Positions 4,918 through 17,575 of a DNA stretch of 40,667 nucleotides are shown here, piece by piece. Source of the DNA: Chloroflexota bacterium (GTDB lineage: Bacteria > Chloroflexota > Chloroflexia > Chloroflexales > Roseiflexaceae). How positions within the stretch are numbered: the stretch's first letter is position 1; every line of letters starts with the position of its first letter. Position numbers and translations under genes: made by a program. The stretch spans positions 1 to 40,667 of the forward strand of contig JAGWYG010000023.1 in the NCBI GenBank assembly GCA_018969485.1. Direction: 5' to 3'. The notes below the pieces were generated by a model. The model saw only the letters and a list, made by a program, of their open reading frames with translations, was not told the origin of the DNA and ran no database searches.

Positions 4918-5709
4918 ATGCAACGAGCACTGCGCATCGCCCATCTCTACCCGGATCACATGAACATCTACGGTGACCGGGGCAACATCATCGCACTGAC
5001 GCAGCGATGCCGCTGGCGCGGCATCGCCGTCGAGGTCGTCGGCGTCCAGCCCGGCGCGGCTGTCGCCTGGGCATCGTTCGACCTGGTGTTCTTCGGTGGT
5101 GGCCAGGACAGCGGCCAGGCGCTGATCGCCGCCGACTTCGTGCGGCGGCATGGGGCCGAACTGTGCGCGGCGATCGCCGACGGCCTGCCGATGCTGGCGA
5201 TCTGTGGCGGCTACCAACTGCTGGGGCACTACTTCCAGACACACACCGGCGAGCGGCTCGCCGGCATCGGCGCCATCGATGCCCACACCATCGGCGGCGA
5301 CCGACGCATGATCGGCGACATCGCCATCACCATCGACGGCGACGTGCTCGGCGGCGGCGAGCCCCTCGTGGCCGTCGGCTTCGAGAACCACAGCGGGCAG
5401 ACGTATCTCGGCGACGGGGTGCGGCCGCTCGGGCGCGTGATCGCAGGGCACGGCAACAACGGCAGCGACGGCAGTGAGGGCGCGGTCGTCCATCACGCCT
5501 ACGGCTGCTATCTGCATGGATCGCTGCTGCCGAAGAATCCGCGCTTCACCGATCACCTGCTCAGCCTGGCGCTGATGCATGCTGGCGGCGATGGGGCGCT
5601 CGCCCCGCTCGATGACCACCGCGAGGACGCGGCGCGGGCGGTGATGCTCGAGCGCCTGCAGCCGCCCGAACGGCCGGCGCGGCGCTGGTGGCCGATACGG
5701 AGGAGTTGA
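4918..5709 (+). CDS. gatD: Lipid II isoglutaminyl synthase, amidotransferase subunit GatD
   Basis: A 263-aa class-I glutamine amidotransferase of the CobB/CobQ-like GatD group. The N-terminus LYPDHMNIYGDRGNIIAL is the GatD signature. The nucleophile is C96 in MLAICGGYQLLG and the catalytic His is H200 in CYLHGSLLPKNP. GatD releases ammonia from glutamine; with the Mur-ligase-like partner MurT it amidates the D-Glu carboxylate of the peptidoglycan stem peptide on lipid II. MurT is normally next door but is absent here: upstream is acnA and downstream a carotenoid enzyme. The C-terminal ~25 residues are basic and Pro/Arg-rich. Its TGA overlaps the ATG of the next gene by one base, so the two are translationally coupled. 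Confidence 0.9.
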   Translation: MQRALRIAHLYPDHMNIYGDRGNIIALTQRCRWRGIAVEVVGVQPGAAVAWASFDLVFFGGGQDSGQALIAADFVRRHGAELCAAIADGLPMLAICGGYQLLGHYFQTHTGERLAGIGAIDAHTIGGDRRMIGDIAITIDGDVLGGGEPLVAVGFENHSGQTYLGDGVRPLGRVIAGHGNNGSDGSEGAVVHHAYGCYLHGSLLPKNPRFTDHLLSLALMHAGGDGALAPLDDHREDAARAVMLERLQPPERPARRWWPIRRS

Positions 5710-7430: not shown

Positions 7431-8330
7431 TCAGCCGCTGATCCGGCACGCGACGGCGGCGGCGACGCGGGCATTCTGGCGCAGCAGCGCGATGTTGGTC
7501 TGCATGCTCTCGCCGTGGGTCTCCTCGGCGACGGCCGACAGCAGGAACGGCGTCACCGCCTGGCCGCGCACGCCGGCGGCGTCGGCACGCGCCAGCGCCC
7601 GGGCGATCGCTGCGTCCACCGGGCCACGTTCGAGCGCCACAGCGGCAGGGGGTGGCACCGCCAGCAGCATGCCGGCGCCGGCGCCGTACACCCGGTGTGC
7701 CGACCAGACGGCAGCGCATGCCGGGGCATCGGCGACCATCGCAGTCTCGAAGCCGCTCTCGGCGCTGTAGAACGCCGGAAACTGGCGCGTCCCGAGCGCC
7801 ACCACCGGCACGCCGGCGGTCTCGAGGTATTCCAGCGTGGCCGGGATGTCGAGGATCGCCTTGGCGCCCGCACACACCACCAGCACCGGCGTACGTGCCA
7901 GCTCAGTCAGATCGGCCGAGATATCCCAGGTGTCGCGCGCGCCGCGATGCACCCCGCCGATGCCGCCGGTCGCGAAGACCTGGACGCCGGCCAGGGCGGC
8001 GAGCGCCATCGTGGCGGCCACGGTCGTCGCGCCGTCGCGGCCCTGCGCCACGGCGAAGCCAATATCACGCCGCGACAGCTTCAGAACCTCGTGCGAGTGG
8101 GCGAAACGCTCGAGCGCCGCCGCATCCATGCCCACGGTCGGCACGCCAGCCACCACCCCGACCGTCGCCGGCACAGCCCCGGCAGCACGGACCTCCTGCT
8201 CCATCGCCCGCGCCAGTTCGAGATTGTGGGGGTACGGCAGCCCGTGCGAGATCACGGTGCTCTCGAGGGCGACGACCGGATGACCGGCGGCGAGTGCGGC
8301 GGCGACGTCGGGGGCAAGCTGAACCGTCAT
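7431..8330 (-). CDS. psuG: Pseudouridine-5'-phosphate glycosidase PsuG
   Basis: A 299-aa enzyme that reversibly cleaves the C-C glycosidic bond of pseudouridine 5'-phosphate to uracil and ribose 5-phosphate. The family hallmarks are intact: ALESTVISHGLPYPHN (E23), K84 in VLKLSRRDIGFA, TGGIGGVHRG at 121-130, and the catalytic-type lysine K157 in CAGAKAILDIPATLEYLE. The length is that of the family. I chose ATG 8330, with AGAGGA 9 bases upstream; an in-frame start further upstream (8408) would run back into the DUF58 gene. It is the last gene of the minus-strand cluster, 28 bases after the DUF58 stop. Its usual partner, the kinase PsuK, is not adjacent, but a PfkB kinase lies at 12160-13104 on the same strand. 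Confidence 0.95.
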   Translation of the reverse strand: MTVQLAPDVAAALAAGHPVVALESTVISHGLPYPHNLELARAMEQEVRAAGAVPATVGVVAGVPTVGMDAAALERFAHSHEVLKLSRRDIGFAVAQGRDGATTVAATMALAALAGVQVFATGGIGGVHRGARDTWDISADLTELARTPVLVVCAGAKAILDIPATLEYLETAGVPVVALGTRQFPAFYSAESGFETAMVADAPACAAVWSAHRVYGAGAGMLLAVPPPAAVALERGPVDAAIARALARADAAGVRGQAVTPFLLSAVAEETHGESMQTNIALLRQNARVAAAVACRISG

Positions 8331-8358
8331 GGTGATCTGTCCTCTCGTTCCTGATGAC

Positions 8359-9546
8359 TCATGCGTTGATCGCGCTGTCGGCCCCGACGCTGCCGGGCCG
8401 GCCGTCACGATCGATGGTATATGCGCGGACCTGCTGGCGACGAAGCTGGATCAGCGCCGCCGTCGGGGCATCGGCGACGAGCGCTGCCGGATGGATGCCG
8501 CGCCGCCGCGCCGTGACCAGGCTCGCCAGGCTGGCGGCATCACAGGCGCCGGTCAGCAGCACCAGCGTCCCACCCCAGCTGAGCGTCTGCGCCGCCTGCG
8601 TCAGCAGCTCGGCCGACTCAGGGCCATCGACCGCCTCGAGGCGCCCGAGCGCGCCGAGCACCAGCAGCAAGTGGCTGCGCCCATTGCCCGGCGGGATCCG
8701 TGGCGGCGCCGCGAGCAGCGGATCGATCCCGTTGCTCCACAGCCCGACCGGCTGACGGAGCGCCGCCAGCTGTGCCACCAGCGAGGCGGCCGCGACCAGG
8801 ACACGCTCACGGGTCTCGAGCGCGAGGCGGCCGGGATAGGCAGCGCGATCGAACGCCACCACCAGCAGCGTCTCGAGCGCGATCGCCGGGGCGCTACGGC
8901 GCACCTGCGGACTGCCCAGGCGGGCGCTGCTCTTCCAGTCGATCTGGCGCAGGTCATCGCCGGCCTGGTATGCCCGCACGCCCACCGGCCGCGCCGGGTC
9001 GGTGAACAACCGCTGTGATGCCGCCAGCGTGCCGAACGGCAGCGCCGCCGGCAGGCCCGGCGGTGCCAGCGGCACGACGCGCGGATAGACCGTCAGCATC
9101 GTCGGCATCAGCCCGCCGAGACGGTGCGTCGTCAGCCCCAGCACGTCGCCCGTCTCGAGAAACAGCGGGCCGACCGGATAGTAGCCGCGGCGGCGCGGCG
9201 TGAGCTCATAGTGGATCGTGCGCGTCTCGACGGCATCGAGCGTGACCACCTCGCGCACCTGGGGCGGGGTGCGCAGCCCGACTGGCACGCTCTCGTCGAT
9301 GGCGAGCCATGGCAGCGGCAGCAGCGACGGATTGATGATCTCAAGGCGCACCGGCACCGTCTCGCCGGGAAAGGCCGCCGGCGGCACGACGCGGCGCCAC
9401 TGCAGCCGCCGGGCGATCCGCCGCTGCCAGAACCAGGTCAGCAGCTGCAGCAGAAGGAGCAGGTACAGCATCGCGAAAAACAGCTCGCTGCGCAGCACCA
9501 CCGCGGCGATGAGCAGAACCACGATCGGCCAGCGCAGGTCCCGCAT
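8359..9546 (-). CDS. DUF58 domain membrane protein
   Basis: A 395-aa protein. Residues 6-40 hold two closely spaced membrane helices (WPIVVLLIAAVVL and FFAMLYLLLLLQLLTWF). The DUF58 signature VRAYQAGDDLRQIDWKSSAR is at 190-209, and the region after it has the shape of a VWA-like domain. DUF58 proteins are regularly encoded with MoxR ATPases and are thought to help fold or activate protein complexes or surface proteins. I chose ATG 9546: the MoxR stop is 9549-9551, so only 2 bases separate the genes and GTG 9552 is an in-frame alternative. A larger apparent reading frame continuing upstream to 10395 is the wrong frame of the MoxR gene. Confidence 0.9.
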   Translation of the reverse strand: MRDLRWPIVVLLIAAVVLRSELFFAMLYLLLLLQLLTWFWQRRIARRLQWRRVVPPAAFPGETVPVRLEIINPSLLPLPWLAIDESVPVGLRTPPQVREVVTLDAVETRTIHYELTPRRRGYYPVGPLFLETGDVLGLTTHRLGGLMPTMLTVYPRVVPLAPPGLPAALPFGTLAASQRLFTDPARPVGVRAYQAGDDLRQIDWKSSARLGSPQVRRSAPAIALETLLVVAFDRAAYPGRLALETRERVLVAAASLVAQLAALRQPVGLWSNGIDPLLAAPPRIPPGNGRSHLLLVLGALGRLEAVDGPESAELLTQAAQTLSWGGTLVLLTGACDAASLASLVTARRRGIHPAALVADAPTAALIQLRRQQVRAYTIDRDGRPGSVGADSAINA

Positions 9547-9548
9547 CG

Positions 9549-10511
<963 letters not shown>

Positions 10512-10541: not shown

Positions 10542-11291
10542 TCAGATGTCGGGCGGCGGTTCAGGTTCGCCCAGCAGGTCGCCGGCCCAGCGCTCGAGCC
10601 ACTCAAGCGCCTCGCGCAGCCGCGCCGGCGGCATGCGCCGGTAGGATGCCAGGCCGAACTGGCGGTACAGCCCGGCAGCGACGCCGCCGTACTCATTGCG
10701 CCGCGAACGTTGCGCCGCGATGGTCGCGACGCGCCGTACCGCCCGTGCCAAGGTCTCGGCCTCGCCGAGATCGGCCAGGTGCTCGGTCGTCAGGCGATTC
10801 CCGTCGATCATGCGCGCGTCGATCTGGCGCTCGATCAACATCTGCTGCCGCGCAAGATTCGCCAGCGCCAGCGCCGCAACGTATGCCTGTTCGGCCGGCG
10901 TCTGCGCCTCGCGCGGCCCGACCAGCGTGTCGTCGGCGGCAAAGCCCTGCGGCCGAAACGACTGCCACAGGATCGACGCAGCGTCGCGCTGGTGCATCAG
11001 CAGCGCGGGGCGCAGCGCCGGATCGACGGCGCCGGCGTCGAGGGTGGTGAGCCACAGGGGCACGAGATCGACGCGCAGTTGCCAGCACGGGTGGCCATCG
11101 TCGTCGGCGATCCGGCGCATGCCGGCGGCGAGCGCAGCGTGGCGACGCGCGCGGCGCTCGTGGGGTGCGCCGGCGATGCCGAGCGCGCCACACAGATCGG
11201 CCAGCGGCACCGCGCTGCGGTTCGGGTCGAGACCGATGCGGGCGATCAGATCGCGCGCGAGAAATGCCGGCAGGTCGTCATCACCAGGCAT
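10542..11291 (-). CDS. P22_AR_N / ORF6C-like antirepressor-type protein
   Basis: A 249-aa protein. Residues 26-112 (SAVPLADLCGALGIAGAPHE, then WQLRVDLVPLWLTTLDAGAV, ending MHQRDAASILWQSF) match the P22_AR_N antirepressor N-domain pattern. A helical, probably coiled-coil segment follows (about 135-195). The C-terminus, NEYGGVAAGLYRQFGLASYR through ALEWLERW, resembles the ORF6C domain found after such domains in phage proteins. In phages these proteins modulate repressors or gene expression; here no other phage genes are nearby. I chose ATG 11291, which overlaps the end of the upstream metallo-hydrolase by 11 bases, with GAGGAGG just upstream; ATG 11297 is possible. This is a domain assignment by pattern memory, not by search; DNA binding is inference. 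Confidence 0.75.
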   Translation of the reverse strand: MPGDDDLPAFLARDLIARIGLDPNRSAVPLADLCGALGIAGAPHERRARRHAALAAGMRRIADDDGHPCWQLRVDLVPLWLTTLDAGAVDPALRPALLMHQRDAASILWQSFRPQGFAADDTLVGPREAQTPAEQAYVAALALANLARQQMLIERQIDARMIDGNRLTTEHLADLGEAETLARAVRRVATIAAQRSRRNEYGGVAAGLYRQFGLASYRRMPPARLREALEWLERWAGDLLGEPEPPPDI

Positions 11292-12159: not shown

Positions 12160-13104
12160 TCAGCCCGCGCGGTCATCCAGCGCAGCCGACATCTCGGCGC
12201 GCGTCGCCTGGGCCGCCGTGCCGCCGGCCGCGCGCGTCGACAGCGCACCACAGACGACTGCGGCATGCAGGATCTGCTCGAGCGGCCAGCCCGCCAGGTA
12301 GCCACACAGCAACCCTGCGTCGAACGAATCGCCGGCGCCGACGGCATCGACCGGCACCACCGCCGGCGGCGCGCAATGCACATGCTGCGCGCCCCACCTG
12401 GCGATCGCGCCGGCTGCGCCACATTTGACCGCCAGCAACGGCACGCGGGCCGCCAGCCACGCGATGGCATCCTCCAACGTCGCGGCGGCGTCATGGTGCG
12501 CCCGTACGATCGCGCATGCCTCGGCGTCATTTGGCAAGAAGATGTCCAGCTGTGGCAGCCAGTCAGGGACATCATCCCATCGTCCGGCGGGATCCCAGTT
12601 CGGATCCAGCGAGGTCGTCGCGCCGGCAGCGCGGGCGCTCGCCAGCACCTCGGCGATCGCCGGCCGCAGCGCCGGCTGCAGGAACGGGCTCGCCAGATGC
12701 ACGTGACGCACCCCACAGAACGCATCGGCGGCGACGTGGGCCCTGCCAAAGTGTGCCATCGCCCCAGGAAACGTCAGCATCGTGCGGTCGGCATCGCGCT
12801 GCAGCACGATCGTGCAGCCCGTACGCAGGTCCGGCGCGACGGTCACACCGCCGATGTCGATCCCGCGCGCCGCGAGATGATCGCCGCACAGCGCGCCGAA
12901 CAGGTCGGCTCCGACCAGGCCGATGAACGCCGTGCGCAGCCCGAGCCGGGCGCATCCGCTCGCCATGATCGCCGCCGAACTCCCCAGCGTCAGCGTGGCG
13001 TCGTCCAGGAGCTGCTCGGCCTGCGCCCAGCGTGGCACCACATCACCACGGACGATGAGATCGACGTTGAGCTCGCCCAGCACCACGACGTCGAACCGGG
13101 TCAT
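12160..13104 (-). CDS. PfkB-family carbohydrate/nucleoside kinase
   Basis: A 314-aa ribokinase-type kinase. The N-terminal strand VVVLGELNVDLIVRGD, the substrate motif GSSAAIMASGCARLG (41-55) and the C-terminal anion-hole motif DAVGAGDSFDAG (253-264, catalytic D259) are intact. PfkB kinases phosphorylate sugars or nucleosides; the substrate cannot be read from the sequence. Pseudouridine is worth testing because psuG is on the same strand about 3.8 kb downstream, and PsuK is a PfkB enzyme; ribose, fructose or adenosine are alternatives. I chose ATG 13104, with GGAG 8 bases upstream; the nearer ATG at 13110 leaves only 2 bases. It lies 52 bases after the GNAT gene and 132 bases before the RNase Z-like gene. 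Confidence 0.9.
   Translation of the reverse strand: MTRFDVVVLGELNVDLIVRGDVVPRWAQAEQLLDDATLTLGSSAAIMASGCARLGLRTAFIGLVGADLFGALCGDHLAARGIDIGGVTVAPDLRTGCTIVLQRDADRTMLTFPGAMAHFGRAHVAADAFCGVRHVHLASPFLQPALRPAIAEVLASARAAGATTSLDPNWDPAGRWDDVPDWLPQLDIFLPNDAEACAIVRAHHDAAATLEDAIAWLAARVPLLAVKCGAAGAIARWGAQHVHCAPPAVVPVDAVGAGDSFDAGLLCGYLAGWPLEQILHAAVVCGALSTRAAGGTAAQATRAEMSAALDDRAG

Positions 13105-16579: not shown

Positions 16580-17575
<996 letters not shown>

Follow-up and report, generated by a model that had tools for sequence, protein, structure and literature searches.

The window, that is, the whole stretch of DNA that we have analysed (40,667 nucleotides), holds on its minus strand a gene, hereafter AR, related to phage antirepressors. 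The features on which the analysis relies are the following.

10542..11291, minus strand: P22_AR_N-ORF6C gene (AR), an intact open reading frame of 249 aa
10959..11249, minus strand: N-terminal P22_AR_N / winged-helix-like domain of AR, approximately aa 15-111, from the Pfam stretch (aa 27-115) and the AF2 model
10545..10775, minus strand: ORF6C helical region of AR (aa 173-240) with the tail GEPEPPPDI, together aa 173-249, from Pfam and AF2, with a fold resemblance seen on homologue L108
11281..12027, minus strand: MBL-fold hydrolase (Lactamase_B_2, Pfam), upstream of AR with an 11-nt overlap
9549..10511, minus strand: MoxR-type AAA ATPase (AAA_3, Pfam), downstream of AR
8359..9552, minus strand: DUF58 protein (Pfam), downstream of moxR
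4918..5709, plus strand: GATase_3 protein (GatD-like), marking the ancestral neighbourhood of the AR orthologue, from Pfam and locus comparison

The initial annotation gave an overlap of 11 bases between AR and the preceding MBL gene and a distance of 30 bases to moxR, and both values proved exact, the overlap being ATGCCTGGTGA and the 30 bases separating the AR stop codon from moxR. An AGGAGG motif lies 9 nt 5' of the AR ATG, within the MBL gene, and a second in-frame ATG is found 6 nt upstream of the AR start; in a close relative (L071, 88% protein identity) the MBL-AR overlap and the AGGAGG Shine-Dalgarno are both kept. The neighbours scanned against Pfam, which make up part of the 40 kb window, all belong to host families (PfkB, Lactamase_B_2, MoxR AAA_3, DUF58, Indigoidine_A/PsuG, GATase_3, aconitase and MurJ), so that over these genes the earlier statement that AR has no phage genes nearby holds. 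The description of the upstream neighbour as RNase Z-like applies in a loose sense only: the MBL gene is the best match of the genome to TIGR02651 (RNase Z), but the score of 121.9 bits (80.9 bits for the best piece in a further search) is far under the cut-off of 292.95. The MBL-AR-MoxR-DUF58 run lies between a PfkB-family kinase (12160-13062) and an Indigoidine_A/PsuG gene (7431-8408), both of the same strand as the run, and we presume that these two may be a split pseudouridine-breakdown pair. Another gene of the window, at 16580-17575, clusters with moxR by BLAST.

Analysed on its own, the window protein matches P22_AR_N (PF10547) over aa 27-115 with an E-value of 1.5e-6 and 28.8 bits, below the gathering cut-off of 30.7, and ORF6C (PF10552) over aa 196-236 with an E-value of 0.033 and 14.6 bits, below the cut-off of 22. 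As a single sub-threshold match is weak, the family was built and its members were scanned singly (E<=0.01): P22_AR_N was recovered in 67/67 relatives (best 2.7e-31) and ORF6C in 50/67 (best 2.3e-8), and the family assignment is therefore firm. Eight rows that are near-duplicates or score low (L056, L122, L091, L095, L086, L087, L066 and L064) were left out of the alignment used (A2, 67 rows), as was the partial tandem copy L109:9291-9902; two further alignments, A3 and A4, have 50 and 27 rows. Membership of P22_AR_N is thus established through homologous intermediates and not through the gathering score of the window protein itself, so that the proposed search with the two Pfam models fell short on this protein and succeeded on its relatives. 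The window protein also matches PHROG 524, 'anti-repressor Ant' (E 1.3e-4), as does much more strongly the viral homologue L126 (6.9e-26), and the proposal that AR is of the phage antirepressor kind, combining P22_AR_N and ORF6C, is borne out by these Pfam and PHROG matches. AR had no match in NCBIfam. In the viral collection, the window protein alone as query returned 17 stretches that matched a pattern, none of them a relative, and tblastn searches of phages with P0002 and L108 returned no matches.

The N-terminal domain of AR is homologous by profile to the P22 Ant / P22_AR_N antirepressors (PF10547; PHROG 524), P22 Ant itself being a faint match (E 0.1). P22 Ant inactivates a phage repressor by binding it, and the phage homologues of the AR N-terminal domain are annotated as antirepressors. 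Three of these that were examined sit in immunity cassettes of the repressor-cro/DNA-binding-antirepressor type, whereas the window AR and its orthologues lie among host genes, without repressor or cro. AR also differs from the P22 Ant-type antirepressors in that its C-terminal part is ORF6C, the domain that phage proteins of PF10552 have in common with the 50 of 67 relatives mentioned above.

Of 400 genomes drawn from the phylum, 31 have an AR match at E<=1e-5. Within the same family or order (40 drawn genomes) an orthologue-level match (E<=1e-45) is present in 19, and in 18 of these it is the sole match; genome G061 has the orthologue plus element-type copies, and the window genome has a single copy. 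The genome collection comprises 52 AR loci in all, host and element type together, and the named carriers are Herpetosiphon aurantiacus, H. giganteus, H. llansteffanensis, H. geysericola, Oscillochloris-type genomes and Roseiflexaceae MAGs. When 76 rows are placed in a tree, a 100/100 branch of length 0.88 separates a host clade of 34 rows (one locus being counted twice, as L056 and L122 are the same broken Oscillochloris sp. ZM17-4 copy), and recurring groups are found within this clade, such as the Herpetosiphonaceae and the Oscillochlorids. All 5 viral contigs, two of which (L123 and L124) are near-identical phages, fall among the remaining 42 rows, as do 15 rows with a ParA neighbour. Two members of the host clade titled Singulisphaera and Thermoflexus MAGs (L097, L098) carry the locus of the lake Roseiflexaceae, its neighbours included, and are presumably mislabelled bins.

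The descent of the host clade follows that of its carriers. Pairwise identities of AR and RpoB in 14 carrier genomes are related with a Mantel r of 0.967, with 0 of 5000 permutations as high; the window genome (G000) is absent from this test because rpoB is missing from its assembly. Placed on an RpoB tree of 27 genomes (G246 left out), the presence and absence of AR needs 6 changes, a patchiness best read as repeated loss, with some gains by transfer also possible. Between the window and L071, AR has a dN of 0.068 and a dS of 0.431, the ratio of 0.16 evidencing purifying selection, and these values are close to those of both neighbours (dN/dS of 0.084/0.413 for MBL and 0.048/0.327 for MoxR). 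In Oscillochloris sp. ZM17-4 (L122:9611-10588) the host AR is broken, the match being confined to residues 1-81 (84% identity to L088).

The surroundings of the orthologues vary between families. AR is found between MBL and moxR in the window, in L071 and in G330, and this order was seen only in the window genus with L071 and in one other genus. In the complete genome G166, which belongs to the family of the window genome and has no AR match, MBL, moxR and DUF58 are directly joined, being an empty site for the arrangement that G330 presents with AR. In five Herpetosiphonaceae loci a GatD-type GATase_3 gene lies 20-29 bp upstream of AR, whereas gatD is 3.6-3.7 kb away in five lake Roseiflexaceae-type loci and 4.8 kb away in the window; that three lineages have gatD as a common neighbour suggests that AR has long held this chromosomal position. 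In the Oscillochlorids AR adjoins an Rsm22-like gene, and other MAGs have it between larC and a gene of the LOG family. An SSB gene is located some 3-4 kb downstream of the host AR in two Chloroflexales MAGs that are sisters (L073:14266-14688 and L074:14045-14467, Pfam SSB being scanned on L073).

A distinct scenario is seen in the element branch. ParA is encoded within 3 kb of AR in 17 of 41 element-branch loci and ParB near it in 7 of 41, versus 0 of 34 host-orthologue loci in both cases; homologues adjoining ParA, and often ParB, come from Chloroflexota plasmids, phages and MAGs (L101, L102, L104, L108, L050, L067, L175 and others). The 375-kb complete plasmid of Candidatus Chlorohelix allophototropha (NZ_CP128401) has AR, ParA and ParB adjacent, AR being the first gene before parA and parB, and its homologue is annotated 'phage antirepressor N-terminal domain-containing protein'; that copy is element-borne, whereas the window AR is chromosomal and without par genes. 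Viral loci carry replication genes, and a phage portal gene is also present in 3 of the 5 viral records. At L109:9240-10702 two tandem AR copies lie between an RNase II-type gene and carA; carA adjoins AR also in L103, L112 and L117, and the RNase II-type gene in L103 and L117. Since the element relatives reside on plasmids and phages, with par genes and in phage cassettes, we infer the direction of the exchange: the kind was born on mobile elements and the window clade was captured.

Taken together, the tree, the synteny and the empty site indicate with high probability that AR is of mobile origin and was captured, that it has been kept under purifying selection and vertical descent, and that it was lost several times. 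The suggestion that the gene was domesticated is thus sustained by vertical inheritance, by the mostly single copy and by host loci, as evidenced by the tree, the congruence with RpoB, the dN/dS values, the synteny and the empty site.

The two branches also differ at the C-terminus. Among the element-branch proteins, 27 of 42 end in -PF (for example -DIPF, -DEPF or -DLPF, as in L109:9902-10702 and L101:5250-6062), compared with 4 of 792 other complete ORFs of the same loci taken as control, and two of these four form one family, Pfam SSB (one of the two was scanned). In a subclade of 31 rows, conservation at the two final positions is 0.87 and 0.90, none of the ten preceding positions exceeding 0.48. 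Bacterial SSB has -DDDIPF as its interaction tip, and in Chloroflexota 23 of 30 SSB loci read in 15 genomes end in -PF (the remaining 7 have no tail or an unsure ORF pick), with at least one such SSB per genome. In the host branch no row has -PF, and 21 of 34 end in GEPEPxPDI, one more ending in GVPEPPPDI. The -PF end is likewise absent from four phage antirepressors sharing the N domain and from the antirepressor of Brevibacillus phage Abouo. The window clade has lost the -PF tip of its mobile relatives.

We have carried out structure predictions of the window protein and of the element homologue L108, which yielded AF2 models with pLDDT of 85.7 and 87.6 and pTM of 0.63 and 0.52, respectively. 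In the window model, short helices and three strands make up an N-terminal unit, which is followed by long helices and a C-terminal helical part. In VIA comparisons its N domain (approximately aa 24-99) resembles the HTH proteins BldC (Z 4.7, 3.0 A over 53) and Mu repressor (Z 4.2), and in BFVD phage Bro-N, repressor and Ant proteins are among the top matches, with probabilities of 0.96-1.0. The check by structure prediction that had been proposed is in line with an HTH-like N domain; Foldseek against the PDB gave no match reaching 1e-3 for either model. The predicted ORF6C part of L108 superposes on the C-terminal domain (CTD) of the annealase Sak80alpha with Z 9.1 (2.1 A over 66 residues), a value of about 9 being, for a helical bundle, within the range that the tool calls common, and on that of Redbeta with Z 5.0; in Foldseek, 8qe9 has the highest probability among the 50 matches listed for L108 (0.69, E 2.4). 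Neither Sak nor Redbeta is among the best 50 VIA matches of the window model, the likeness coming from L108, and AR is unlike these annealases in that it is without their N domain and no sequence similarity was detected: a sequence profile of the ORF6C part matched no Sak or Redbeta chain, a yeast IRC4 chain appearing at E 0.018. DdrC of Deinococcus, described in PMC5436757 as binding ss and ds DNA and as bridging and condensing DNA, aligns over both the N and C parts of AR and is among the top VIA matches (Z 5.0 for the window, 6.2-6.5 for L108). The whole-chain rmsd is 11-17 A, the Z values lie in a range that is uninformative, and a profile search of the PDB gave no DdrC hit at E<=10. The Sak/Redbeta and DdrC likenesses of the models are leads, not proofs. 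The predicted folds point to binding of DNA and of a partner protein, possibly of the SSB network, at least as much as to antirepression.

The explanation that we prefer is that a P22_AR_N-ORF6C protein of a mobile element was captured by an ancestor of the Chloroflexales-type order, and has since been kept under purifying selection as a mostly single-copy host gene, lost several times. Its N-terminal winged-helix-like domain would contact DNA, the middle helices would dimerise the protein and the ORF6C bundle would dock a partner protein; from fold and family we tentatively regard AR as a small DNA- and partner-binding protein organised in this way, a scheme that we rate as less probable than not. 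The ancestral partner would probably have been a repressor or a recombination/SSB-type protein; as the host AR lost the SSB-like tip and mostly has a new conserved tail, the partner has therefore probably changed. The explanation as a whole, capture and domestication together with the DNA- and partner-binding role, we consider moderately probable.

A different function may be envisaged for the same protein. AR could regulate the transcription of host genes in the classical, sequence-specific way, its own operon possibly among them, as the HTH-like predicted fold, a basic stretch at aa 36-58 (net +3) and the antirepressor family would suit; however, when the upstream regions of AR (180-200 bp) from 10 Oscillochlorid and 5 AR-ParA/ParB loci were aligned, no shared palindrome that could be a conserved operator was discerned by eye, and the neighbours of AR vary between families, which makes this role a rather unlikely one. 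Somewhat less likely still is that AR does not regulate transcription and acts instead as an adaptor at SSB-coated DNA, in replication or repair, through an annealase-CTD-like ORF6C. The likeness of the L108 ORF6C part to the Sak80alpha and Redbeta CTDs is in line with this, since these domains work with SSB or its tail: according to PMC11846896, Sak80alpha and its SSB cooperate via the Sak CTD and the SSB tail, and PMC8303780 describes the Redbeta CTD as an SSB-binding domain with the fold of lambda Orf. The -PF end of the mobile homologues, like that of the host SSBs, agrees as well, but the window clade is without this tip, the Sak/Redbeta likeness has no counterpart in sequence and the sole direct link to SSB genes is that of the two sister genomes. 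In a wider version, the AR proteins of Chloroflexota elements would be DNA-bound adaptors in the SSB network, their ORF6C being an annealase-CTD-like binder of the SSB tail and their C-terminus (-D-I-P-F type) an imitation of the SSB tip, and would work with ParA/ParB in plasmid and phage maintenance; the window AR would be the host-captured version, with both domains kept and the tip replaced. This, too, is a speculative proposal and seems to us unlikely.

Improbable is a role of AR in host immunity, in which a regulator taken from an element would block the partition or induction of related plasmids and phages that enter the cell: the same order has multi-copy element versions, several of them beside ParA/ParB, and frequent loss would suit a defence-like gene, but AR matches no PADLOC family and has no recognisable defence neighbourhood. 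More doubtful still is a single pathway in which AR would be the functional partner of MoxR and of the MBL hydrolase. In fact, the 11-nt overlap, the Shine-Dalgarno within the MBL gene and the common strand, an arrangement kept in L071, would suit such an operon-specific role; we have nonetheless set it aside as the core function of AR, because the adjacency occurs in two genera only, and MBL homologues are found in 13 of 15 genomes tested, AR-less genomes included. Finally, a recent prophage or plasmid remnant, which the family origin (P22_AR_N/PHROG 524) might suggest, is exceedingly improbable in view of the tree, synteny, RpoB congruence and dN/dS, with no element genes found beside AR.

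In the open-licence papers searched, we found no description of a phage or plasmid protein of the antirepressor type turned into a vertically inherited host gene across an order, and no domesticated P22_AR_N-ORF6C host family. To return to the capture that we favour, the AR gene offers a case with an empty site and with carriers that are named and culturable (Herpetosiphon aurantiacus and other Herpetosiphon). With its element relatives one can test directly whether regulators of phages and plasmids are connected, through ORF6C domains and -PF tails, with the SSB network and with ParABS partition. Should the reading as SSB adaptors working with ParA/ParB be true, a factor for element maintenance or recombination would have been domesticated in one bacterial order and would be run there as a chromosomal protein.
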